From positions 98,082,988-98,146,987 of the forward strand of contig OY294045.1 in assembly GCA_958510825.1 (NCBI GenBank): a stretch of DNA of 64,000 nucleotides. Direction: 5' to 3'. Of this stretch, positions 99 through 56,760 are shown in pieces; the stretch's first letter is position 1; each line of letters starts with the position of its first letter. Made by a program: the position numbers and the translations under genes. The notes below the pieces were generated by a model, which was not told the origin of the DNA, did no database searches, and saw only the letters and a list, made by a program, of their open reading frames with translations. The stretch comes from Brachypterus glaber. Taxonomy: Eukaryota > Arthropoda > Insecta > Coleoptera > Kateretidae.

Positions 99-3000
99 TT
101 AGAACATTTCATTTTTAATATGTGTACTGTTTAATTTTAAATATATTTTTAATTCGCGTCTCAATCTTTTTTGATTTTTTATATTTTTAATTTCAATGGG
201 TATTAAATTATAAGCTTTGGGACCTAAAAAAAATATAAATTTTTGTGAAAACGTTGTTCTGTATAGAGGTATTTGTGTTGATTCGTTTGTCACAGCCCTA
301 GTTCTATATTTATGCTGACGCAAAGGTGTATTATTTTTAGAAGCCCATATTAACGCCCTGTAAGTAAATAATTCCCTAATGTCAAAAAGACCAGATTCTT
401 GGTATAAAAGTTCAGTGGGGTATCCGTTATCTTTTTTAAAAATAATTTTGACAATAGTATTTTGTGCAACCTCTAAAGGTTTTAAAGCATTTTTGGACAA
501 GCCACCCCACGCAGTGATGCAATATTGCAAAATCGATTCAGCTAGGGCGTAGTACACGGCGATACAATTCTTTCTAGTAAGAAAACTTCTTAATTGGTAA
601 AAAACATATACTAACTTCCTAAGCCTCTTCATAAGAGCCTCTGTGTGCTTGTTCCATCTGAGATGTTGATCGATTATGACACCTAGATATTTGATAGAGT
701 ATTCTCTTTTAATATAGCAACAATTACAGTTCAACGTTTGTCCACAGTTGTGGTTATGTATGTAAATTTTATCGTTTTCTGGTTGATCAACACTCGTGAT
801 TGAAAAGGTGAGGAAACTTGTTTTTGAAGTATTGAGGCTTAGGGAGTTAATACTCAACCAATCTACAATATTTTTTAAACCAAGTGTCGCGTCTCTATAT
901 GCAATGTCCCAGGACTCACCCACAAATATAGCAACTGTGTCATCTGCATATGAAAGTACCTTACAATTTTTGTTTATAGCAAGTAAATTATTTATGTATA
1001 TTAAGAACAATATTGGACCTATAACAGTTCCTTGAGGAATGCCCATATTTATTTTTAATGGGTCACTTAAAGTTTCATTTATTTTGACTCGTTGCATTCT
1101 ATTTGTGAGGTAGTCCTGAAGCAGTGCATAAGAAACGCCTTTTAAACCTAACAGATTTAGTTTTTTTAGTAAAATATAGTGATCAACCGTGTCAAACGCC
1201 TTCGCCAAATCAAGGAATACTGCAATACACTTTTTGTTATTATGCAGCCCACCAACTATAGTTTCTGTAAATTCCAAAACGGCATTTTCAGTAGATACAT
1301 TTTCTCTAAACCCGAATTGATTTGAATTTAAAATATTGTTTTCATGTAAATAGTTATTTAATCTTTTTTTGACACAATGTTCAAAAATTTTTCCAAAATT
1401 ATTTATTACAGAAATCGGCCTATAGTTAGTGGGTTGCGATTTGTTTCCAGATTTATATATGGGTGTGACTATTGACTCTTTCCATTGAGAGGGGACTTTG
1501 CCTGTTAAAAAAGAGAGGTTTATTATATGCTCGAGAGGCTGCACAAAATACATATGAAATCTTTTTATTATGGTCACCGAAACACCGTCCGGACCTGGAG
1601 CAGACTGATTTTTTAACTTTGAAATACTGAGTATAATCTCATTTTGACTTACTGGGTCTAAATAAAAAGTATTATTAATTCTTCTGTCAGACGGTGCCGA
1701 AATTCCATCTTTTTTAATTTTTTTTGCCATTTTTTTACCAATGTCTATAAAAAATTTATTAATGTGATTAGATTTCGTTTTATTATCTGTTATCAGGTTC
1801 CCTTCCTCATCAACTAAATTATTTAAATTGTTTTGATTTTTTTTCGATTTTTTATTACATGACTCATTTATGGTTTTCCAAATTTTTTTACTGTTATTGT
1901 TTGCCTGTTCTATTTTATTTTTATAAAAATTATCCTTTGTTGATCGTATTAAAGTTTTTAAAAAATTTCGGTACCGCGTATATAATAATTTATTTTCTTC
2001 AGAAGGGTTCCTAATAAGTACTTTTTTTAAGTTATCTCGCTTTTTTATAGACGTTATTATCCCATTTGTTATCCATTCTTTTAATTTTCGATTTTTATTA
2101 CTAATTTTTATTGTTTTTGTTGAATTTTTTATATAGCTGGTTACTTTATTAATAAATATATCACAGGACTTTTCGGCATCGTCTGACGTAAGAACGTCGT
2201 TCCAGTTCTCATTTCTTAAAGAATCTTCTAAAATATTATAATTTATTTTATTTTTTGTGTAGTGATCTGAATATAAGTTTGTCACCGTTTTAGGTTTATT
2301 GTTTATATTTGATTGAATAGTTAAAAATGGAGAGTAATGGTCGCTTAAGGCGGTTTTGTAAACGAAGCCTTTAACATATAAGTTTCTTTTAATAGAATTT
2401 TTAACTTTTACAAAAATGTGATCTATTGTACTAATCTCATTTCCATTGATCCGTGTAGGCTTATTTATATATGATAAGTATCAAAATTTGATAGGGTAGA
2501 TACATAATTATTTACGTTATTATCTATCGAATCTAAAATATTAAAATTAATGTCCCCTAAAAATATTTCAATATCATTAAATGTCAAATTTTGCATAAAA
2601 TTATCTAACTCAGTAATAAAAAGATCTTTGTTTGATTCGTACACACGGTATGTACCCGTAAGACCAATGTTTATGTTTAAATCAGGACAATTAATATGGA
2701 CCCTTAAAAAGTTTGTTTGTGTCAGTGGTTGTATTGTAACATCAGCCTGTAAAGTGTCCCTTACATAAATTATGAACCCGTCATTTTTATTGAGATGAGA
2801 ATCATTATAAAATATATTAAAATTAGGTATGTGAAATAGATGAATATCATCAACCTTAAATGTTTCTGATAAGGTAATTATATCTAAATTATTTATGTTA
2901 AATGTTTCTAAATATACTAAAAACTCGTTAAAATTTTGTCTTACGCTACGTATGTTAAAATTTAGGATATTTAAAATTCTCTTACCGCTGATTTGGCATA

Positions 3001-3112
3001 CTCCCTCATGTATATTTTCATAAAAAATAGTATTAACCTGCTCAAACTCTTCTATCTCCTCTATCAACTCTAGTGTTTCTATCCTAATATAAGATCTAGA
3101 AAATAAATAAAA
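99..3112 (-). pseudogene. LINE ORF2: APE endonuclease and reverse transcriptase, one frameshift
   Basis: The first open segment (3112-2465) encodes the APE-type endonuclease: NFNIRSVRQN, TLSETF and a GDINFN motif. It ends prematurely. The next frame, from about 2480, resumes with the expected end of the domain (PTRINGNE, IDHIFV, ALSDHYSP) and runs to 99, so a single indel near 2470 separates them. The RT contains FLDLAKAFDTVDH, GIPQGTVIGPILFLIYINN and the catalytic YADD (codons at 939-950). It makes first-strand cDNA on nicked target DNA. There is no in-frame ATG ahead of the endonuclease domain. The protein must start by re-initiation at a non-AUG codon, by frameshifting, or after splicing; a CTAG preceded by a T-rich tract lies at about 3101. 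Confidence 0.8.
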
Positions 3113-3222
3113 TTATCACACTTTGCGTAATCATACTAGCCTAATTAAAGTTCCCATTTCTTTAATTATATGTAAAAAAAAAAAAATAATAATTCTAACT
3201 CAGTTTAATTTAAATTTGTTCA

Positions 3223-3852
3223 TTATAAATCTGTCTCAGTATTTACACTAATTTTAACATTATTGTTCATTGCGAAGATTTTCCCATCAATTGTCCATAC
3301 ATTACGAAAGCCATATTTTTGCATTGCTTTTTTTAACAATTCCACTTTATTTTTAGTAAGGTCTTCGCGAATAGTAATTTTGGATCCTTTTAATACGCTT
3401 TTGTTTGTATACACAAGGTTTCTAGAAAAAAGATTCGTAAATTTGACGACAATCGCTTGCGGTTTTTTGTTTGTTGTTTTTTCGGTGTCCTTGATTTTTA
3501 ATCTATAGCAGCCGTCGATCTGATTTTCATTTATTGCTAAATTCATCCTTTTTCTTATTATATCGCTTACTATTTCCTTAATATTTTCATTTTGGCTTTC
3601 CATTACTCCATAAATTCTTAATGTTGATAGTCTGTTGTGTTGTTCTAGTTGCTCTATTTTATATTTTAGGTATTTGTTCTCTTCTTCAATTTTATTTATT
3701 TTACCATTTTGCACGTCCAGAGCCTTTTGTAACTCACTTTTCACTTTCGTAGATATCGAGTTCACTAGATTTTCAGTTTTTGCAGGGTCGTTAAAAAACC
3801 GCTCCAGCGTGGTTTCGAGGTTATTACTCGTATTTCTGGTATCAGGGGCCAT
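3223..3852 (-). CDS. LINE ORF1 protein (coiled coil plus L1-ORF1-like RNA-binding domain)
   Basis: This is a 209-residue protein starting at an ATG in good context (CAACCATGG on the minus strand). Residues about 40-72 are rich in K, E and L with heptad spacing (for example KIEEENKYLKYKIEQLEQ), which suggests a trimerising coiled coil. The part after LRIYGV resembles the RRM plus C-terminal domain of L1-type ORF1 proteins, including a TIREDLTKNK segment. There are no CCHC knuckles, unlike the LINE at 50.5 kb, so the two LINEs belong to different lineages. In this family such proteins coat the element RNA and act as nucleic-acid chaperones. The frame is intact. The stop lies 110 nt before the open part of ORF2. 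Confidence 0.75.
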   Translation of the reverse strand: MAPDTRNTSNNLETTLERFFNDPAKTENLVNSISTKVKSELQKALDVQNGKINKIEEENKYLKYKIEQLEQHNRLSTLRIYGVMESQNENIKEIVSDIIRKRMNLAINENQIDGCYRLKIKDTEKTTNKKPQAIVVKFTNLFSRNLVYTNKSVLKGSKITIREDLTKNKVELLKKAMQKYGFRNVWTIDGKIFAMNNNVKISVNTETDL

Positions 3853-4031
3853 GGTTGATAAATTTTTGAAGAAATTGTACTTTTCTCAAACTCACAACAC
3901 TTTTTCGTTAATATATTGCACTGTTTCACAATTTTTTGTTACTGATTTACTTGTAGAAAACAATTTTATACCGGGAGCTGTTAACTACGCTACTCGCAGT
4001 CGGCCATCTTTACACAACCAATACACCAAGG

Positions 4032-28872: not shown

Positions 28873-29929
28873 CCCAGGTAGCAAAATAACATGACATTCA
28901 CGTGAAAGTCACGTTAATATGTGACATGTGATGTTAAGATTGTAGTCTCATTTAACAAGAATGTAGCATGGTGGGGATGTCCTAAGTCCGCTCCTAATAA
29001 CATCACACAATGACATCCCGAAAATAACGTGTTTGTGACATCATAAATCCACATTCCTGTTATATCTAATATCTTATGGATGCCGTTACTGGTACTTTAA
29101 TATTTAAATAATATTCTAGGATATTAGCTTTTTCTAAATTAAAACCATTAAAAACGCTATAACCCTATAAAAAATCGAGTTTGTTTGTTTGTTTGTTTGT
29201 TTAACCTGATACTATTCTACTTAATTAAGCATCCCCTAAGTCCAGGACTTGTGTGGGCTAGTAGTAGAGGGAACCACCGGCTTATACTGACTTTCGAACC
29301 AGTTTCTAGGGAGTGTCCGTTTCACTTATCGCCTTCACCAAATTTCAATTATTAATTAACTGAAAAAGGCAAATCGGCGCCAGTGAGAATCGAACTCACT
29401 ATAGTAGACTTGCTATGCATACGCGCTAGCCACTACGCTATGCCTCCCATTAAAATCAATCATTAATTGAAACAATCACAGATTGAAACAGATAGATTCT
29501 AAATACGAAATTGCAGATTAAGCGGAGAATAAATTCCTTTAATCCATGTCCGTGGTCTTGAGAAGCCCGGCAGAGCCCCCTATCCATTGGAAATCGTATA
29601 ATGTGTATACAATTTCCTTATAATAATTTACTCTATCAACATCATCTTATATCGATTTTTTTGCTTCGAACGTCGGTAAGAAGCAAAATAACATGACATT
29701 TACGTGAAAGCCACGTTAATATGTGACATGCGATATATTCACAGCGTTGGTAAATATTTGTTATTAAATAACATGGTTGTCACGTCACACGTGTTACGTT
29801 GCAAATGTGATGTTAAAAACTTGTTATTTTTCAATATTATGTGATGTTATGATTTAGTTTAAAAATACACCCAAAAGTGATGTTAATTTCTTGTAATATA
29901 ACATCCCTTGCTACCTGGGTTGGGTTTCC
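28873..29929. mobile_element. Non-autonomous element with CCCAGGTAGCAA ends, copy 1
   Basis: The ends are CCCAGGTAGCAAAATAACAT and its near-complement ATAACATCCCTTGCTACCTGGG. Inside are many ACATGAC/GTGATGTTA words. A SINE is inserted at 29180-29449. The empty-site copy is at 32278-33030. Confidence 0.75.
29180..29449 (-). mobile_element. tRNA-derived SINE, copy 2
   Basis: This is the reverse complement of the SINE at 21090, with its (CAAA)n tail at 29180-29201. Comparison with 32278-33030, which lacks it, confirms insertion. Confidence 0.85.
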
Positions 29930-39404: not shown

Positions 39405-40670
39405 TAGATAGATAGATAGATAGATTTATTCTTGCTAAAAAAATTACAAACGTCAGAAAAAAATACAGTAGAGAAAAAAAAATTAAACATAAAATATTAA
39501 AAGTCTAGATCATTGAAGTTATTATCTAAATATTCTTCAAGGCTATAGAATGCCTTTTTAATTAAATAAAATTTTATACGCTTTACAAAAACAGAAAATG
39601 ACATACATCTAAAATTTGTAGGTAACACATTAAAAAATTTTATACAGTAGTAGTTAGGGCCGGTTTTTGACCTTTCCAGTCTTAATTGTGGTATACAAAG
39701 ATCAGTCTTATTTCTCGTATTATATGTGTGTTTTGTGAGAAGAGATCTGGGTTCTTCCTAAGATAAATTAGGCAATTTAATATAAACAAAGAAGGAAAAG
39801 TAAGGATCCCCAACTTGATAAAGTGCTGTTTGCATTCATCCCTATATTTCAAACCCGCAACTATTCTAAGTGCTTGGCGTTGTAACCCGAAGATCCGGTG
39901 CCTACATGACGAGTGACCCCAGGCTACAATACCATAGTTTAGCAGCGATTGAAACAGAGCGAAGAATGCATTTCGCAATATTGGCTCTGACAGACATAAT
40001 GAAAGTGATCGAAGCAGGTAAATATTTTTGCATAGCTTTTTTGATAAAGCAGTACCATGGTTATTCCAGGTCAACTCAGAATCTAGATGTAGACCTAAAA
40101 ATTTCACACTTGTTGATAGATCTTGATCTTCTAGGTTTCGCAAAGTAAAAATCATATTAACGGTTTTACTTTGATTAAGACATAATCTGTTATCCAAGAA
40201 CCACACAGAGGCTTTCAATTGTATGTCACGAATTTTAATCGATCCCATTATAAAGGATTCATCTTGGACCCCGAAATTTGTGTCATCTGCAAATAATGTG
40301 CAAGCTGCGTCCGAAACAAATTCCGGTAGGTCGTTAATAAAAATTAAAAAAAGTAAAGGGCCTAGGATAGACCCTTGTGGTACCCCAAATCCCACAGGCC
40401 TGTCTTCAGACCGAGATCCGTTGAACAGTACCTGTTGGGTTCTACCAGATAAATAGGAACTTATTAATTTAACACTATTACGATCAAAATTGTAGTAATA
40501 CAGTTTTCTTATTAAGATGTCATGGGATACACAATCGAAAGCCTTCGTGAGATCCAAGAATGTGGCAAAATTGAATTGTTTGTTTTCATAGGATGAAATT
40601 ACAGTATTAATAAATTTAAGTATAGCGTCAATAGTCGATTTACCCCTGCGAATTTGAAAATTGGATGTTT
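39405..40670 (-). pseudogene. 5'-truncated LINE reverse transcriptase with (ATCT)n tail
   Basis: The frame is open from about 40665 (RRGKSTIDAILKFINTVISS) to 39682. It contains FLDLTKAFDCVSHDIL, GVPQGSILGPLLFLIFINDLP and the catalytic LFADDTNF. After it come a 270-bp 3' UTR and a GATA-type tail (39405-39424 on the plus strand). Truncation is just before the RT fingers. RT residues are conserved, which suggests a fairly young insertion. It lies on the opposite strand to Penelope copy 2. Confidence 0.8.
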
Positions 40671-49639: not shown

Positions 49640-50518
49640 TATTATTTACTTTTAGCAACCTTAAAAATATACCAATTTTCACGAAAACTACCCCCCGCCT
49701 CTTAGGGGGTGGAGTTAGAACTTTTTTATTATCAGATTCTCTTTCAGCAACCCTAAAAACACCAATACACAAATTTTCACAAAAACTACCCCCGCCCCTC
49801 AGGGGGCGAAATTTATTAAAAGCTTCAGTTTTAGCGACCTCAAAAACCCCAATATATAAATTTTCAAGAAAACTACCCCCCGCCCCTCAGAGATAAGATT
49901 TTTTTATTATCAGATTTACTTTCAGCAACCTGAAAAACCCCAATATACCAATTTTCACGAAAACTACCCCCCGCCAATTGGGGGTGGAGTTAGAATTTTT
50001 TTGTAATCAGATTCACTTTCAGCAACCTCAAAAACCCCAATTTACCAATTTCCACGAAAACTACCCTTCACCCCTGAGGGGGTTGATTTAAAAAAAATTA
50101 TTATCAGATTCACTTTCAGCAACCTCAAAAACCCCAATATACCAGTTTTCATGAAAACTACCCCCACCCCTCAGGGGGTGAAATTAGAAAAAAATTATTA
50201 TCAGATTCATATAACCCCAAAAACCCCTATATACCAATTTTGACGAAAATATTTACCACCTCACCCCCTCAGGGGTGGAGTTAGAAAAAAATTATTACTA
50301 GATTCAATTTCAACAACCTCAAAAAGCAATTATCTAATTTTTCTAAAAAAAATGTATTTTTCCCCATTTGCCCAACTTGCCGCACCCCAATGTTCACCAA
50401 AAACAATCCCGAGCTAGAACTTTCGGTAACATACCTGTATGCAAAATGTCAAGTCTCTAGCTTAGCGTTCTTAAGTTATCGTGCCCACAAGATTTCCCGG
50501 CCAGACCGATCGACCGAC
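49640..50518 (+). repeat. Element X copy 2: about eight 90-bp minisatellite units
   Basis: Units contain TTCAGCAACCTCAAAAACCC, AATATACCAATTTTCACGAA, AACTACCCCC and a CCCCTCAGGGGG palindrome. After the array come GGTAACATACCTG and AAGATTTCCCGG, as in copy 1 (19960-20700). The LINE at 50519 interrupts this element, and its remainder resumes at about 54799. Confidence 0.7.
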
Positions 50519-50543
50519 CGAATAACATACGGGATACGTCAAC

Positions 50544-51785
50544 ATGGCGGCAGGTGTAGATTTAAGTGCGCTGACCGCTACAATAAAACGCCTTAGTAAA
50601 GAGGAATTAGTACAAATAATTGTAAAAAAGTGCATAGATTTTGATGTTAGTGCTTCGATGAGTGTAGGAACCTTTGAAAAACTTAAACAAATGGTACAAG
50701 TGCATTTTAGTGATAGTACAAAAACAGATTCACAAAATAAAGTTACAGCTAAAGAAAACGAGTGCCTAAAACGGGAAATAGTGTTGCTTAAAAAGTCGGT
50801 GGAAGATCTAGACTATACAGTGAAACTGCAAAAAGACGCAATAGATTTGCAAAAAAAACATGAGGTCAACGCCACTTCAAATCCGTCCAGTACGAATTTA
50901 TACGCAAATGTGATAAAAACTTCTGTCCAAAAAAACGGACATCAAAACATAAACAGTACGGCCAGCGTGATACAAAATACGGGGGCAGTTCCAAAAACTA
51001 ACATTAAGCAACTAGAAAATTTAATAACATTAATTATAAAAAACAATAACAAAACCTCAGAACAAGTATATAATGAAATTAAAACACTAATAAATCCAGT
51101 CAACCTATCTGTACCTGTAGCTAAAATTTTTAAAATAAACAAAGGTGTATCTCTACATTGTGATCCAAAACAAAAATCAAAACTCAGCCAAGAAATCATG
51201 AAGATTCTTCCCAGTGGATATGAAATCGAAGAAGCAAAGCAGTTTACTCCCAAGTTAATTATATTCAGTGTAAATAAAAATGACCAAATAGGCGATAATG
51301 TGCAACTCGCTAAAGACATAGTAAAAATAAATAGCTTAAATACTAGTGCTGAAAATTTTTCGTTTGAAATAGTGCGAAGATTAAATACAAAAAACAAGAA
51401 CTTTATTAATCTTATTATCTCTGTGGACATAAACACTAGGAAAAAATTAATAGAAGCAGGGGGAATATTTATAGGGTGGCAAAAATGTGCAATAAAAGAC
51501 TCATATCACATCAAAAGGTGCTTCAAGTGTGCAAGTTTTGGTCACATATCTAAAGATTGCCAAAATACAACCCAAGTATGCTCTCTGTGCTGTGAAAGCC
51601 ACGACACCTCAACATGCACTGCAATGGAAAAAAAGTGTGCAAACTGCGTAAGGCACAATAGAAAAGGTAATTTAATATATGATACATCTCATTCTGCATC
51701 TGATTCCATGTGTCCTGTATACTTAAACATCCTGAATGAAAAAATGCAGCATGCACAACAATTTATAAACTCCAACATACCTTAG
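50544..51785 (+). CDS. LINE ORF1 (Gag-like, three zinc knuckles), ends at UAG-CAA-UUA
   Basis: 413 residues from ATG at 50544 in the context CAACATGGC. The N-terminal 120 residues are K/E/L-rich and may form a coiled coil. The C-terminal part (from residue 326) has CFKCASFGHISKDC (CX2CX4HX4C), CSLCCESHDTSTC (CX2CX3HX4C) and a third CANC...H...C finger, as in Jockey-group ORF1 proteins, which bind element RNA. The middle resembles the RNA-recognition-like region of those proteins. The stop TAG (51783-51785) is followed by CAATTA, and ORF2 continues in the same frame. Readthrough would yield a fusion of about 1380 residues. Confidence 0.85.
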   Translation: MAAGVDLSALTATIKRLSKEELVQIIVKKCIDFDVSASMSVGTFEKLKQMVQVHFSDSTKTDSQNKVTAKENECLKREIVLLKKSVEDLDYTVKLQKDAIDLQKKHEVNATSNPSSTNLYANVIKTSVQKNGHQNINSTASVIQNTGAVPKTNIKQLENLITLIIKNNNKTSEQVYNEIKTLINPVNLSVPVAKIFKINKGVSLHCDPKQKSKLSQEIMKILPSGYEIEEAKQFTPKLIIFSVNKNDQIGDNVQLAKDIVKINSLNTSAENFSFEIVRRLNTKNKNFINLIISVDINTRKKLIEAGGIFIGWQKCAIKDSYHIKRCFKCASFGHISKDCQNTTQVCSLCCESHDTSTCTAMEKKCANCVRHNRKGNLIYDTSHSASDSMCPVYLNILNEKMQHAQQFINSNIP

Positions 51786-51791
51786 CAATTA
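51783..51791 (+). promoter_or_regulatory. Candidate stop-codon readthrough signal UAG-CAA-UUA
   Basis: The nine bases TAGCAATTA fit UAG-CAR-YYA, the leaky-stop context known from tobamovirus replicase genes. It joins ORF1 and ORF2 in one frame with no other stop until 54686. The function is inferred from position and motif only. Confidence 0.6.
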
Positions 51792-54686
51792 AAAACCATT
51801 AAAAACAACTTTAAAGTACCCTCGTATTTAATAGAACCAAATAGTGAAGAATTATGCGTGGTTCATCAGAACACCCAATCTATCCGTAATAAGCTTGAAG
51901 AATATGAAATTTTTCTACATGAAGAAAAAGTAAATATATTTTGCGTCACCGAAAGTTTCTGTACAGAAGACGAAATATCATACATAAACCTTGAAGGTTT
52001 TAAAATATCCAGCAAATACTGTCGTCCAAATAGCAAAAGAGGGGGCGCAATTATTTTTACAAATAGAAAATATTATACCACTGATTTAAGGAGTATCGTC
52101 AGCCTAAGTGAGCCCTTTATCTTCGAGTGTGCAGCGACCGAAATAAAAATAGACAATAAATATATTTGTATCTTGTGTATATACCATGTGGGAGATTCTG
52201 ATGTTAACATATTTCTTAACAAAATTGAAGAAGCCATAGATAAAATTTTTAGCAAAAAAAAGTATTTTAAAATAATCATCTGCGGAGACCTAAACATAAA
52301 TTATCTTATAAAATCTACGGAACGAACTAAATTACTCGAAATAACTAGCTCTTACAATATTACAAGTATTTTTAATGAAGCTACCCGCCTAAAAACTGCG
52401 GCTACTGGCATAGATTATGTATTATCAAATTTTAACGAAAATATAATATCAAAAAGTATTATAGAAAATGGACTATCAGATCATACAGCCCAAAAGGTAA
52501 GCTTTAAAATTAATAAACAACAACCCATCAAAGTAGAATATAGACCTTTTTCTAAACAAAATATAGATACTTTCATTTATAAATTAAAAAACGAAAAATG
52601 GTGCGATATTTTTAATAGTACAAACGGAGTAGATACAAAATTCAATAGTTTTATGAATACTTTACTTTATCATTTTCATATTTGTTTCCCCTTAAAAACT
52701 AAAATACAAAAAAACTCTGAAATAAACAAAAATTGGCTTACACCTGGAATTAAAATATCAGCAAATAAAATTAAACTTTTGTATATACAGCAAAAAAACG
52801 GCGAAATAAATCCACTTTATTATTATTCCTACAAAAAAATTTACCAAAGAGTTATTAGAGAAGCTAAAAAACTCAACGTAAACAAAACTATAATAAACTC
52901 AGGTAACAAAACCAAAGCGGTTTGGAATTTTATAAATAATTCTATAAAAAATAAACAAAAAACACAAAATAAAATTTTTAATATAAATAATGCAGAAACA
53001 ACAGACAAAAAAACTATAGCAAATGCCTTTAATAATTATTTTACAAACCTTCCAAAGGACTTAGTAAAAACAATAAAAAACATAGAAATGCCTCAAATAG
53101 ATCAAAAAGAAAAAAAATCGATATCAAACTCAATATTTCTTCAGCCTGTCCTTGAACCTGAATTAATACGCACAATTCTAAATCTAAAAAACTCTAACTC
53201 ATGCGGTATCGACAATTTTCCAACACATTTACTAAAAAAATGCGCACACGAGATTTCTAAACCTCTTTGTTTTTTAATTAATTTATGTTTTACTGAGGGC
53301 TGCTTCCCAACCTATTTAAAAACATCTAAAGTAGTTTGTATTCACAAAAAAGGAGATCCCAAACAAATAAACAACTATAGGCCTATCTCCTTGCTCTCCG
53401 TCTTTTCAAAGGTTATTGAGAAGTTAATAGTAGTGCGCCTCCTAAACTTTTTTAATCAGAATAATCTACTTTCTCCGCAACAGCACGGCTTCACCAAAAA
53501 CAAATCCACGTTAACTGCACTTATTGATATAATAAACTACATTTATACAAACATTGAAAAAAATAACAACATAATAGCACTACTATTAGACATATCAAAA
53601 GCCTTTGATTGCGTAGACCCGGATATTCTTGATAAAAAACTTGAAACTTTTGGTATACGAGGAGTTTGCAAACAACTTATTCTTTCATTTATTAGGCATA
53701 GAAAACAACTTGTTTTATTTCTAGATGAGTTCTCAGATGAACTAGAGGTGGACATAGGCGTTGCACAAGGAAGCGTTATGGGGCCTATAATTTTTTTAAT
53801 TTATAGCGATGACCTAAGATACTTTATTTACCTGTATTACTGCTCTTTTGCTGATGATAGTACATTTATCTCTGCCCACAAAGATAAATCTAAAACCACT
53901 ACAGAAATAAATGAAAATCTGAAAAGAGCAGCAATATATTTTGCTAATAATAAACTGGTACTAAATCAGGAAAAAACTGTTTTTATGGAATTCCAAACCC
54001 GAGGAAATATCGACAATTGTAGCCCCTTAATAAAACTTAATGGTAAATCCGTTCAGAAAGTTACTAGTTCAAAATTGCTTGGAGTTTACTTTGACATGTC
54101 TCTTACTTGGTCAAATCACATAGATTATGTAAGCAAAAAATGTGCAAGCTATTGCTTTGCCCTAAAAAGGTTACGTCAACTCTCTGACCAAAGTGTCGTT
54201 AAAATATTCTATCATTCCAATTTTATTTCGGTTATTAGATACGCCATAGTTATTTTGGGTAATTCGTCTCATTCCGATAGATTATTTACTTTGCAAAAAA
54301 GAGCTATCCGTTGCATGTATAATCTACCATTTAGGCATACTTGTAAAGAAACATTCAAAAATGAACAAATACTAACTTTTCCATCGCTGTATATTTTTGA
54401 AACACTAAAATTTGTTAAACTCAACTTAGATAAATACACCCTTCTAAACTCAAATCATGACTATAATACTAGGCACGGCACTGATCTGAGTTATCCTGCT
54501 CATCGTCTTACTTTATTCGAAAAAAATCCTTTTTATGCTGGCGCTACCTTATTTAATAAATTACCCGTTAACATAAGAAACTTACCTTATACAAATTTCG
54601 TCAAAAAAGTTAAATCTATGTTAGCATCAGAAGCTTTTTACTCAGTTGAAGAATTTAAAATGTTTAATTTTAATATTTATGTGTAA
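51786..54686 (+). CDS. LINE ORF2: APE endonuclease and reverse transcriptase, no start codon
   Basis: The frame is open directly after the ORF1 stop. It starts QLKTIKNNFKVPSYLIEP and enters the endonuclease domain with VHQNTQSIRN, TESF, GDLNIN (about 52283), IDYVLSN and GLSDH (about 52473-52484). RT motifs follow: ISKAFDCVDPDIL, GVAQGSVMGPIIFLIYSDDL and the catalytic FADD at 53847-53858. The C-terminus carries the usual RHTCKETF-type region. The first in-frame ATG comes only after the whole endonuclease domain, so a separate AUG start cannot give a working protein. The GTG at 51858 is not a credible start. No internal stop or frameshift is seen. It could still be active. Confidence 0.88.
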   Translation, partial: QLKTIKNNFKVPSYLIEPNSEELCVVHQNTQSIRNKLEEYEIFLHEEKVNIFCVTESFCTEDEISYINLEGFKISSKYCRPNSKRGGAIIFTNRKYYTTDLRSIVSLSEPFIFECAATEIKIDNKYICILCIYHVGDSDVNIFLNKIEEAIDKIFSKKKYFKIIICGDLNINYLIKSTERTKLLEITSSYNITSIFNEATRLKTAATGIDYVLSNFNENIISKSIIENGLSDHTAQKVSFKINKQQPIKVEYRPFSKQNIDTFIYKLKNEKWCDIFNSTNGVDTKFNSFMNTLLYHFHICFPLKTKIQKNSEINKNWLTPGIKISANKIKLLYIQQKNGEINPLYYYSYKKIYQRVIREAKKLNVNKTIINSGNKTKAVWNFINNSIKNKQKTQNKIFNINNAETTDKKTIANAFNNYFTNLPKDLVKTIKNIEMPQIDQKEKKSISNSIFLQPVLEPELIRTILNLKNSNSCGIDNFPTHLLKKCAHEISKPLCFLINLCFTEGCFPTYLKTSKVVCIHKKGDPKQINNYRPISLLSVFSKVIEKLIVVRLLNFFNQNNLLSPQQHGFTKNKSTLTALIDIINYIYTNIEKNNNIIALLLDISKAFDCVDPDILDKKLETFGIRGVCKQLILSFIRHRKQLVLFLDEFSDELEVDIGVAQGSVMGPIIFLIYSDDLRYFIYLYYCSFADDSTFISAHKDKSKTTTEINENLKRAAIYFANNKLVLNQEKTVFMEFQTRGNIDNCSPLIKLNGKSVQKVTSSKLLGVYFDMSLTWSNHIDYVSKKCASYCFALKRLRQLSDQSVVKIFYHSNFISVIRYAIVILGNSSHSDRLFTLQKRAIRCMYNLPFRHTCKETFKNEQILTFPSLYIFETLKFVKLNLDKYTLLNSNHDYNTRHGTDLSYPAHRLTLFEKNPFYAGATLFNKLPVNIRNLPYTNFVKKVKSMLASEAFYSVEEFKMFNFNIYV

Positions 54687-54767: not shown

Positions 54768-54798
<31 letters not shown>

Positions 54799-54804
<6 letters not shown>

Positions 54805-54890: not shown

Positions 54891-56760
54891 ATTTCCAGTG
54901 CTCGCATAGGCGCCGCGTCGATTCTATCGTTGACGCGAGGTTTTAAATATTTACATTTTTATTTTCTTCGAAAAACACCGATATATTTACATATTTATAG
55001 TTAATATGTATATTCAATATTGTTGTGTGTAACAAATTAGTCGTCAAATGTGTCGATTTAGTGACCTTTATAAAAATTTCCCTCATAATTCGCCAAAATT
55101 ATTCCGTAAGCCTATGTTTTTGTGTTTATTTTCAACGTTGATGAGCATTAATCGGAATAAATTCAGTTATGACTCATCAACGTTGAAAATAAATACAGAA
55201 ATTTTGCCGAATTATGAGGGAAATTTTTATAAAGTTCACTAAATCGTAACATTTGACGACTAATTTGTTACCCACAACAATATTGAATATACATATTAAC
55301 TATAACAGTTGCTCGATTTTGTGCACTTAGAACTAGATTTACATAAGTATGTTTGCCTTCAATTTGATGTAAGTAAAGCTTTTGACACAGTTCGACCTGA
55401 ATTTTTGAAGACAAAGCTGGACAGTATTAGGATACCTCCGAATATTACCAGCTGGATCTATCCTACATGCGACAACAAAAGTTAATTATTAACCTTAATA
55501 AAAGAACAAGATCAAAAACATTTTATGCTAAGTTAGGTGTACTCCAAGGTTCTGTTTTGGGGCCCCTCCTTTTTTTAATCTACATAAATGATTTGCCTGA
55601 TTATATTAAGAATGCCCTAGCGTAATGTTTGCTGATGACACCACAATTGTGATTTCTGCTCACTGTGTTGCTGAATTATATGATTTGATATTGAAGGTCA
55701 TAGACGATTTTAATATATGGTGTCAAAGAAATAAACTTGTTTTAAATAATACTAAAACAGTTGCTATTAGCTTTTTAATTAGAAGACGACTTCCACAAGA
55801 CTTTACAATACCTGATATACAGTTAAGTCAAAATACTAAATTTCTTGGTACATATTTTGATGAGAATCTGTCTTGGGATTTACATATTGACCATGTTGTA
55901 AAAAAGTTAAACAGCGCATATTTTGGTATATCAAAGATGAAATCTGATCTCAATGAAACCGGTTTATTGAACATGTACTACTCACTCTTTTATTCACATG
56001 TCATATAACATAATCAGCTGGAGCTATGGCAGAGAAATTGACAGGGTATTTGTGGCTCAAAAAAGGGATATTAGAATGATTTTTAACATGCCTTTTAGAG
56101 ATTCCTGCAAACAGATATTTAAAGAAAAGCGTTTGTTAACTATTCATTCATTATTTATTTTTAAGTGTATTTTATTTGTGAAAAAAAATTAATCTTTTTG
56201 TAAACAATTCAAATGTAAATTCGGGTGCCACTCAAAATCATTATCCAGACACCGCGGCATAGAAAATCTTTTTACGAGAAATCTCCGAGATACTCTTATA
56301 TAACTTTTTATAACAAACTGCCAAAAAACATCAGAAATATAAATAGCTACAACTCATTTAAAAATTCTGTAAAAAACTATCTGATTGATAAAGTTGTTTT
56401 GTAACAACAAATTGTAATGGTTTATTGTCGTTCTAGGACCTATTTTTATAGGTATTTTACCCTATATTAGACAGTTATAACACAATAAATTTTGATGGAT
56501 ACTCTTCACTTCTAATGACTAATCTTCTCAAAAAACATCCAAAATGACTGCCTCCGTTTCCAGTGATTTTCTATATTTGCTATCCTTTCCAAACAATTTA
56601 GGATTATTTATCACCCCCTAGTAACTGAACTTATTTTAAATGTAAATATTTAAAACCTCGCGTCAACGATAAAATCGACGCGACGCCTATGCGAGCACTG
56701 GAAATTCACCGATGACTGTTGATGAGCCATGACTGAATTTATTCCGATTAATGTTTATGA
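54880..56760. mobile_element. Foldback element interrupted by a LINE fragment
   Basis: 54890-54960 (CCAGTGCTCGCATAGGCG, AACGATAGAATCGACGCG-like) pairs with 56640-56720. An inner hairpin pairs 54995-55135 with 55160-55311 (TTTCAACGTTGATGAG, TTCCCTCATAATTCG). A LINE fragment lies between 55315 and about 56500. The element ends about 160 bp before gene A exon 3a. Confidence 0.65.
55315..56500 (+). pseudogene. Degenerate 5'-truncated LINE reverse transcriptase
   Basis: RT pieces in shifting frames: FDVSKAFDTVRPEFL, LQGSVLGPLLFLIYINDLPD, then MFADDTTIVISAH (55625 onward), FLGTYFDENLSWDLHID and RDIRMIFNMPFRDSCKQIF. Several frameshifts and stops interrupt it. It ends near ACACAATAAATTTT. It is of the same general group as the LINE at 50.5 kb but clearly older. 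Confidence 0.75.

Follow-up and report, generated by a model that had tools for sequence, protein, structure and literature searches.

A predicted leaky UAG between ORF1 and ORF2 of a LINE in the beetle Brachypterus glaber

How a little ORF2 protein is made from the RNA of a two-ORF LINE is a long-standing question, and the answers given in the cited parts of the reviews are of the reinitiation types. The element described here raises this question in a particular form; in the window, by which is meant the whole stretch of 64,000 nucleotides that was analysed, its two reading frames are divided by nothing but one UAG. Judged from the sequence, we hold it to be very probable that the element is a young LINE with a programmed leaky UAG ending ORF1, readthrough of which would give an ORF1-ORF2 fusion.

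Layout of the element

An earlier note on this DNA had placed ORF1 and ORF2 in the same frame with one TAG between them and CAATTA directly 3' of it, and this is what was found. The shared frame of 1381 codons has stops only at codon index 413, which is the TAG, and at the final codon, the part behind the TAG being open from 51786 to 54686; the remaining two frames over the same 1381 codons run into a stop roughly every 10 codons. The features of the element, all on the plus strand and in positions of the window, are as follows.

50538..50543, plus: 5' end of the element, about 3-6 bases ahead of the ORF1 ATG
50544..51785, plus: ORF1, 413 aa, Gag-like with CCHC knuckles, including its TAG stop (coding 50544-51782)
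51516..51563, plus: CCHC zinc knuckle (PF00098)
51783..51785, plus: predicted leaky stop UAG, a TAG in 23/23 junction places and 10 lineages
51786..51791, plus: CAA-UUA, which fits the CAR-YYA readthrough context (CAR in 23/23 and CARYYA in 19/23 junction places)
51786..51842, plus: linker from stop to endonuclease, free of in-frame ATG and of differing length among lineages
51786..54686, plus: ORF2, 966 aa, endonuclease and reverse transcriptase (TAA at 54684-54686)
51843..52514, plus: AP-like endonuclease domain, ORF2 residues 20-243
52653..52655, plus: first in-frame ORF2 ATG, codon 290, downstream of the endonuclease
53340..54086, plus: reverse transcriptase domain (PF00078, E 1.6e-29)
54771..54803, plus: (TAT)n 3' tail, about where the copies stop resembling each other

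A 5' leader seems to be almost absent from the element; all three full-length copies (L010, L011 and L014) cease to be similar 3-6 bases ahead of the ATG, beyond which their flanks are unrelated. From its flanking DNA, read by eye, L011 appears to be inserted in the CCHC-type ORF1 of another LINE. A tandem repeat of about 97 bases, present seven times at 49666-50325 of the window with its end some 210 bases ahead of the element, is absent from the other full-length copies and is thus flanking DNA. A 13-base repeat (49599 and 54841) was considered as a target-site duplication and is taken for chance, since the copies place the start of the element just before the ORF1 ATG.

The zf-CCHC match lies at ORF1 residues 325-340 (E 4.3e-4; 20.7 bits, the curated cut-off being 20.8), and ORF1 is 39% identical to its relative P0001; the structure model of ORF1 was too poor for use (pLDDT 43). 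For ORF2, the predicted endonuclease fold is that of the LINE-1 and TRAS1 endonucleases, with residues 20-29 as the first beta strand (model pLDDT 81.5), and the linker ahead of it (residues 1-16) is predicted with low confidence. With an AP-like endonuclease and a reverse transcriptase in ORF2 and a repeat tail at the 3' end, the element has the features of an APE-type LINE. The label "Jockey-type" that it had been given holds, as far as can be told, only at the level of the superfamily: the ORF1s of two related lineages, G and H (see below), begin with a differently built, Cys-rich part, which in H resembles a PHD finger (below the curated cut-off), and in the cited part of a survey PHD-bearing ORF1s belong to the CR1 and L2 lineages and not to Jockey proper (Metcalfe and Casane, PMC4120745).

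It had also been claimed that ORF2 has no in-frame ATG before the end of its endonuclease. This is correct; the first such ATG is at 52653, and a protein started there would lose the endonuclease domain. Further, from the 17 ATGs in any frame between 51600 and 52700, none would give an endonuclease-containing protein in the absence of readthrough, and no AUG of the window copy overlaps or adjoins the ORF1 stop in the manner of SART1, the nearest in frame being that at codon 290.

In the mechanism that we propose, most ribosomes would terminate at the UAG and give ORF1 protein alone; CAR-YYA would weaken termination, and a minority of ribosomes would decode the UAG as an amino acid and continue in frame. 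The product would be an ORF1-ORF2 fusion of 1380 aa, through which the endonuclease and the reverse transcriptase could enter the ORF1-RNA particle in low proportion, as with retroviral Gag-Pol. The readthrough event and how often it occurs, the residue placed at the UAG and a role for the fusion in the particle are what we infer here. UAG followed by CAR-YYA is the readthrough signal of tobacco mosaic virus (TMV), and in the parts of the two papers cited here CAR-YYA is described as a signal of plants, to which a yeast consensus is related, beetles not being mentioned (PMC2754532, PMC4973966); at the TMV site in plants it is tyrosine that is inserted at the UAG, according to the cited part of one of them (PMC2754532).

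The junction in other copies and lineages

Three queries were run against the window's own assembly (648 Mb, 842 contigs). Element DNA gave at least 47 matches, from which 12 regions were chosen, the ORF2 protein gave at least 50, from which 30 loci were cut out, and the relative P0008 gave at least 52, from which no loci were cut out; these counts are lower bounds, only the best candidates having been scored. Twelve short stretches were also examined for further junctions. The junction was not used as a search criterion, though the DNA query includes it. Loci were omitted where the endonuclease start was missing (5 of the 30: L033, L042, L051, L056 and L057), where the 5' part was absent or rearranged (L046, L052, L058 and L059), or where there was no junction (L017, L022-L029 and L060). 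Once loci at the same place had been merged (L055 is the place of L021), there were at least 23 places with an ORF1 end, a stop and an endonuclease start. By sequence we grouped these into ten lineages, A to J, with 5, 2, 1, 1, 2, 3, 4, 3, 1 and 1 places respectively; C, D, I and J are thus single copies, J rests on 261 bases, and two places are on small contigs (C399 and C568) which may be alternative haplotypes. All ten lineages are from a single genome and are related by descent.

The ORF1 stop is TAG in 23/23 places and all 10 lineages, and the codon after it is CAR in every one of them. The full CAR-YYA hexamer is present in 19 of the 23 places and 8 of the 10 lineages, as CAATTA in A, B and C and as CAACCA in D, E, G, H and J; lineages F (three places, CAACAA) and I (one decayed copy, CAGTTC) are each one base off. 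Since both F and I fall in a group with G, whose hexamer is CAACCA, theirs look derived. The frame from TAG to endonuclease is unbroken in 21 of the 23 places, a linker indel being found in L019 and L021, and in 20 of the 21 unbroken copies there is no in-frame ATG between the TAG and the HQN motif; L053, the decayed and broken copy of lineage I, is alone in having one, three codons behind the TAG. The earlier note had looked to conservation of TAG-CAR-YYA and of frame in other copies for support, and to sense codons, other frames or an AUG start for ORF2 as evidence to the contrary. Within this one genome the former is largely what is seen, apart from the hexamers of F and I; as to the latter, no place has a sense codon, but L053 has its ATG, and in distant families at 35-37% ORF2 does lie in another frame, mostly with a slip site of its own (see below).

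Close to the window copy, TAG-CAATTA is identical in seven junction-spanning copies (L010-L016), five of the window subfamily and two (L014 and L016) of a second subfamily at about 90%. Only two of the five, the window copy and that at C1:82229028, have an unbroken ORF2, the others carrying small indels, and the C1:82229028 copy lacks most of ORF1. Between L010 and L014, dS is 0.25 and dN/dS is 0.17 for ORF2, 0.15 for the endonuclease and 0.22 for ORF1; by this measure purifying selection acts on the ORF2 protein that both subfamilies encode behind the TAG. The 24-codon linker has 1 synonymous and 3 other changes between the subfamilies, and is not visibly constrained itself.

ORF2 identity to A is 0.64 for E, 0.49 for F, 0.48 for G and 0.47 for H, and in lineages at 37-68% ORF2 identity the junction remains TAG-CAR, followed by TTA or CCA in C, D, E, G, H and J. 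Four-fold sites were compared in A, B, E, F, G and H. Their identity to A is 0.32 in E, 0.38 in F, 0.31 in G and 0.30 in H, where random third positions would give 0.32; 13 of the 15 comparisons among the six fall at 0.29-0.38 against the 0.32 expected at saturation, the outliers being A-B (0.82) and F-G (0.43). The linker from stop to HQN varies between 15 and 26 codons in unbroken copies (A/B 26, C 18, E 15, F 18, G 16, H 22, I 18, J 16), and yet the frame of ORF1 and ORF2 is constant. Changes in the nine-letter junction stay mostly within CAR-YYA, with TTA versus CCA meaning leucine versus proline. With four-fold sites saturated and linker length variable, both signal and frame look selected; UAG, CAR and frame are, on these comparisons, conserved beyond synonymous saturation. 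In G and H the junction is kept despite the different start of ORF1.

In an ORF2 tree of our own lineages and unnamed relatives, A-E are joined next by F, G and I, then by H and then by P0008; support within A-E is low (0.31 and 0.44).

Chance was gauged within the window. Over both strands, CARYYA stands directly after 4 of 1731 TAG, 6 of 4692 TAA and 5 of 1972 TGA. There are 604 single-base changes that would create an in-frame stop, the TAG codon itself excluded, of which one yields TAG with CARYYA; none of the 26 such changes in the linker between ORF1 and endonuclease does.

Other explanations and relatives elsewhere

The main rival is that ribosomes terminate at the UAG and ORF2 is then restarted at a nearby non-AUG codon, as has been proposed for human LINE-1. 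Reinitiation at a stop-start overlap in SART1 and an AUG-independent or unconventional start in LINE-1 are both on record in the cited parts of the reviews (PMC5972666, PMC5009743), and in the window copy the fifth codon behind the UAG is an AUU in good context (AAAACC-AUU-A). This candidate start is, however, ACU in the sister subfamily, and a linker that differs among lineages in both sequence and length speaks against a fixed non-AUG start. Moreover, reinitiation has no need of CAR-YYA, of a constant UAG or of a conserved frame, and would not easily account for the keeping of frame and hexamer among lineages that are saturated; we consider it improbable. Less probable again is that the UAG is removed from the RNA, either by editing from A to I, giving UGG, or by splicing. 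UAG offers ADAR a favourable neighbour context, and to that extent the site would suit editing; on the other hand, CAR-YYA has no evident role in it, and folding of the RNA 3' of the stop at three lengths gave no notable hairpin or other structure (z -0.6 to -1.2), which leaves this reading very unlikely.

The least likely is that the TAG is an accident: a nonsense mutation or assembly error in a fused single ORF, or the remnant of a two-ORF element that has lost its ATG. Elements with a single ORF are indeed reported from the CR1 and L2 lineages, in the cited part of the survey (PMC4120745). Against this, TAG is present in all 23 places, on many contigs, with no sense codon, and the read-through protein used as a query, with 7990 candidates scored, found no fused relative, its one match covering ORF2 alone. 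The earlier note's view that decay does not explain the TAG is upheld, and on this sequence evidence copy decay and assembly error may be regarded as excluded for practical purposes.

Relatives from other sources were also considered. Five of six predicted proteins (P0003, P0004, P0006, P0007 and P0008) have their first residue at or within the first endonuclease motif, and P0005 starts 9 residues ahead of it; these starts fit a cut at the stop, but the gene caller alone may explain them. P0001 ends several residues short of the present ORF1 and was not counted as junction evidence, as its contig is 1377 bases and its end may be the contig end. Searches of viral_contigs with ORF2, two ORF2 alignments and one ORF1 alignment gave no relatives. 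From genome_contigs there were 9 matches in bacterial bins, regarded as eukaryotic contamination; two of them, L003 and L004, extend to the start of ORF2, and these are distant and have an ATG-led ORF2.

Distant families and known systems

Families at 35-37%, found in the same genome by means of P0008, were compared over nine stretches of 261 bases. In all nine ORF1 and ORF2 are in different frames. T_TTT_TTA is a classic retroviral slip site, and it is found in seven of the nine (L062, L063, L064, L065, L067, L068 and L070, which by eye are five families), once per locus, in the ORF1 frame and either within or at the beginning of the -1 stretch that is open into ORF2; the register was computed for six of these and read from the translation for L070. 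These seven loci carry a heptamer of the X_XXY_YYZ form of -1 frameshifting; by chance, about 0.05 T_TTT_TTA in this position would be expected per stretch. The remaining two loci, L066 and L071, are one family that lacks T_TTT_TTA and has a different overlap, and in L064 and L070 a methionine stands just ahead of the endonuclease motif, where a start is possible. P0002, from Brassicogethes aeneus, has no knuckle part and is similar to the ORF1 of these families; near its end it has ISNFLY, as at the slip site of L067.

By sequence, then, -1 frameshifting at T_TTT_TTA seems to be the way in which these distant LINE families link ORF1 with ORF2. It is less certain than the leaky UAG itself, though still probable in our view, that a whole branch of the Jockey superfamily makes a Gag-Pol-like fusion by recoding, with evolutionary switching between UAG-CAR-YYA readthrough and U_UUU_UUA -1 frameshifting, as in retroviruses, and with the fused polyprotein as the working form of the enzyme.

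The closest parallel is the type I UAG-CAR-YYA site of tobamoviruses such as TMV, with which the element shares the stop, the six-base 3' context and a predicted low-level C-terminal extension that includes the polymerase. UAG with CAR-YYA is found in the window and in 19/23 places, and the window's is followed by a long selected frame (966 codons, dN/dS 0.17). The element differs in being a retrotransposon of an animal genome, with a Gag-like ORF1 joined to an endonuclease and reverse transcriptase, and in that its readthrough is deduced from DNA. Moloney murine leukaemia virus has the same in-frame UAG between Gag and Pol and a fusion at low ratio; there, according to the cited part of a review, a 3' pseudoknot is stimulatory (PMC5009743), while in the present element, which is non-LTR, the short context seems to be enough. 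SART1 and human LINE-1 share the two-ORF non-LTR layout, with ORF2 made from one RNA, but use overlapping stop-start reinitiation and an unconventional start respectively, and the cited parts of the reviews, in which TART stays unexplained, describe no ORF1-ORF2 readthrough fusion for them (PMC5972666, PMC5009743). The Jockey superfamily (CR1, L2 and Jockey) has the same CCHC-knuckle ORF1, with a PHD-like finger as in H, and the same AP-like endonuclease and reverse transcriptase; the difference lies in the conserved, putatively leaky stop that joins ORF1 to ORF2 here.

Searches of the open-access literature, judged by title, abstract or cited passage, gave no paper in which we recognised ORF1-ORF2 readthrough for a LINE. 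In the main text of a survey of ORF1 in 448 Jockey-superfamily elements the terms "stop codon", "frameshift" and "in frame" do not occur (PMC4120745), and the cited part of the review which names the murine leukaemia virus as a UAG case does not mention LINE readthrough (PMC5009743). If our reading is true, a leaky-stop clade with frameshifting sister families would mean that LINEs reached the retroviral Gag-Pol solution, in a compact system where the ratio of ORF1 to ORF2 may be set by nine bases; gene prediction would split such elements at the stop, which is what the predicted relatives suggest.

The window holds other LINE sequence. A decayed element at 102-3885 on the minus strand has a 220-codon ORF1 ending in TAATG, a possible stop-start site, and an ORF2 frame without ATG ahead of the endonuclease. 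Truncated and decayed fragments at 39500-40668 (minus strand) and 55309-56401 (plus strand) have a reverse transcriptase similar to that of the element's ORF2. A tRNA-Ala (AGC) is predicted by ARAGORN at 29375-29447 on the minus strand.
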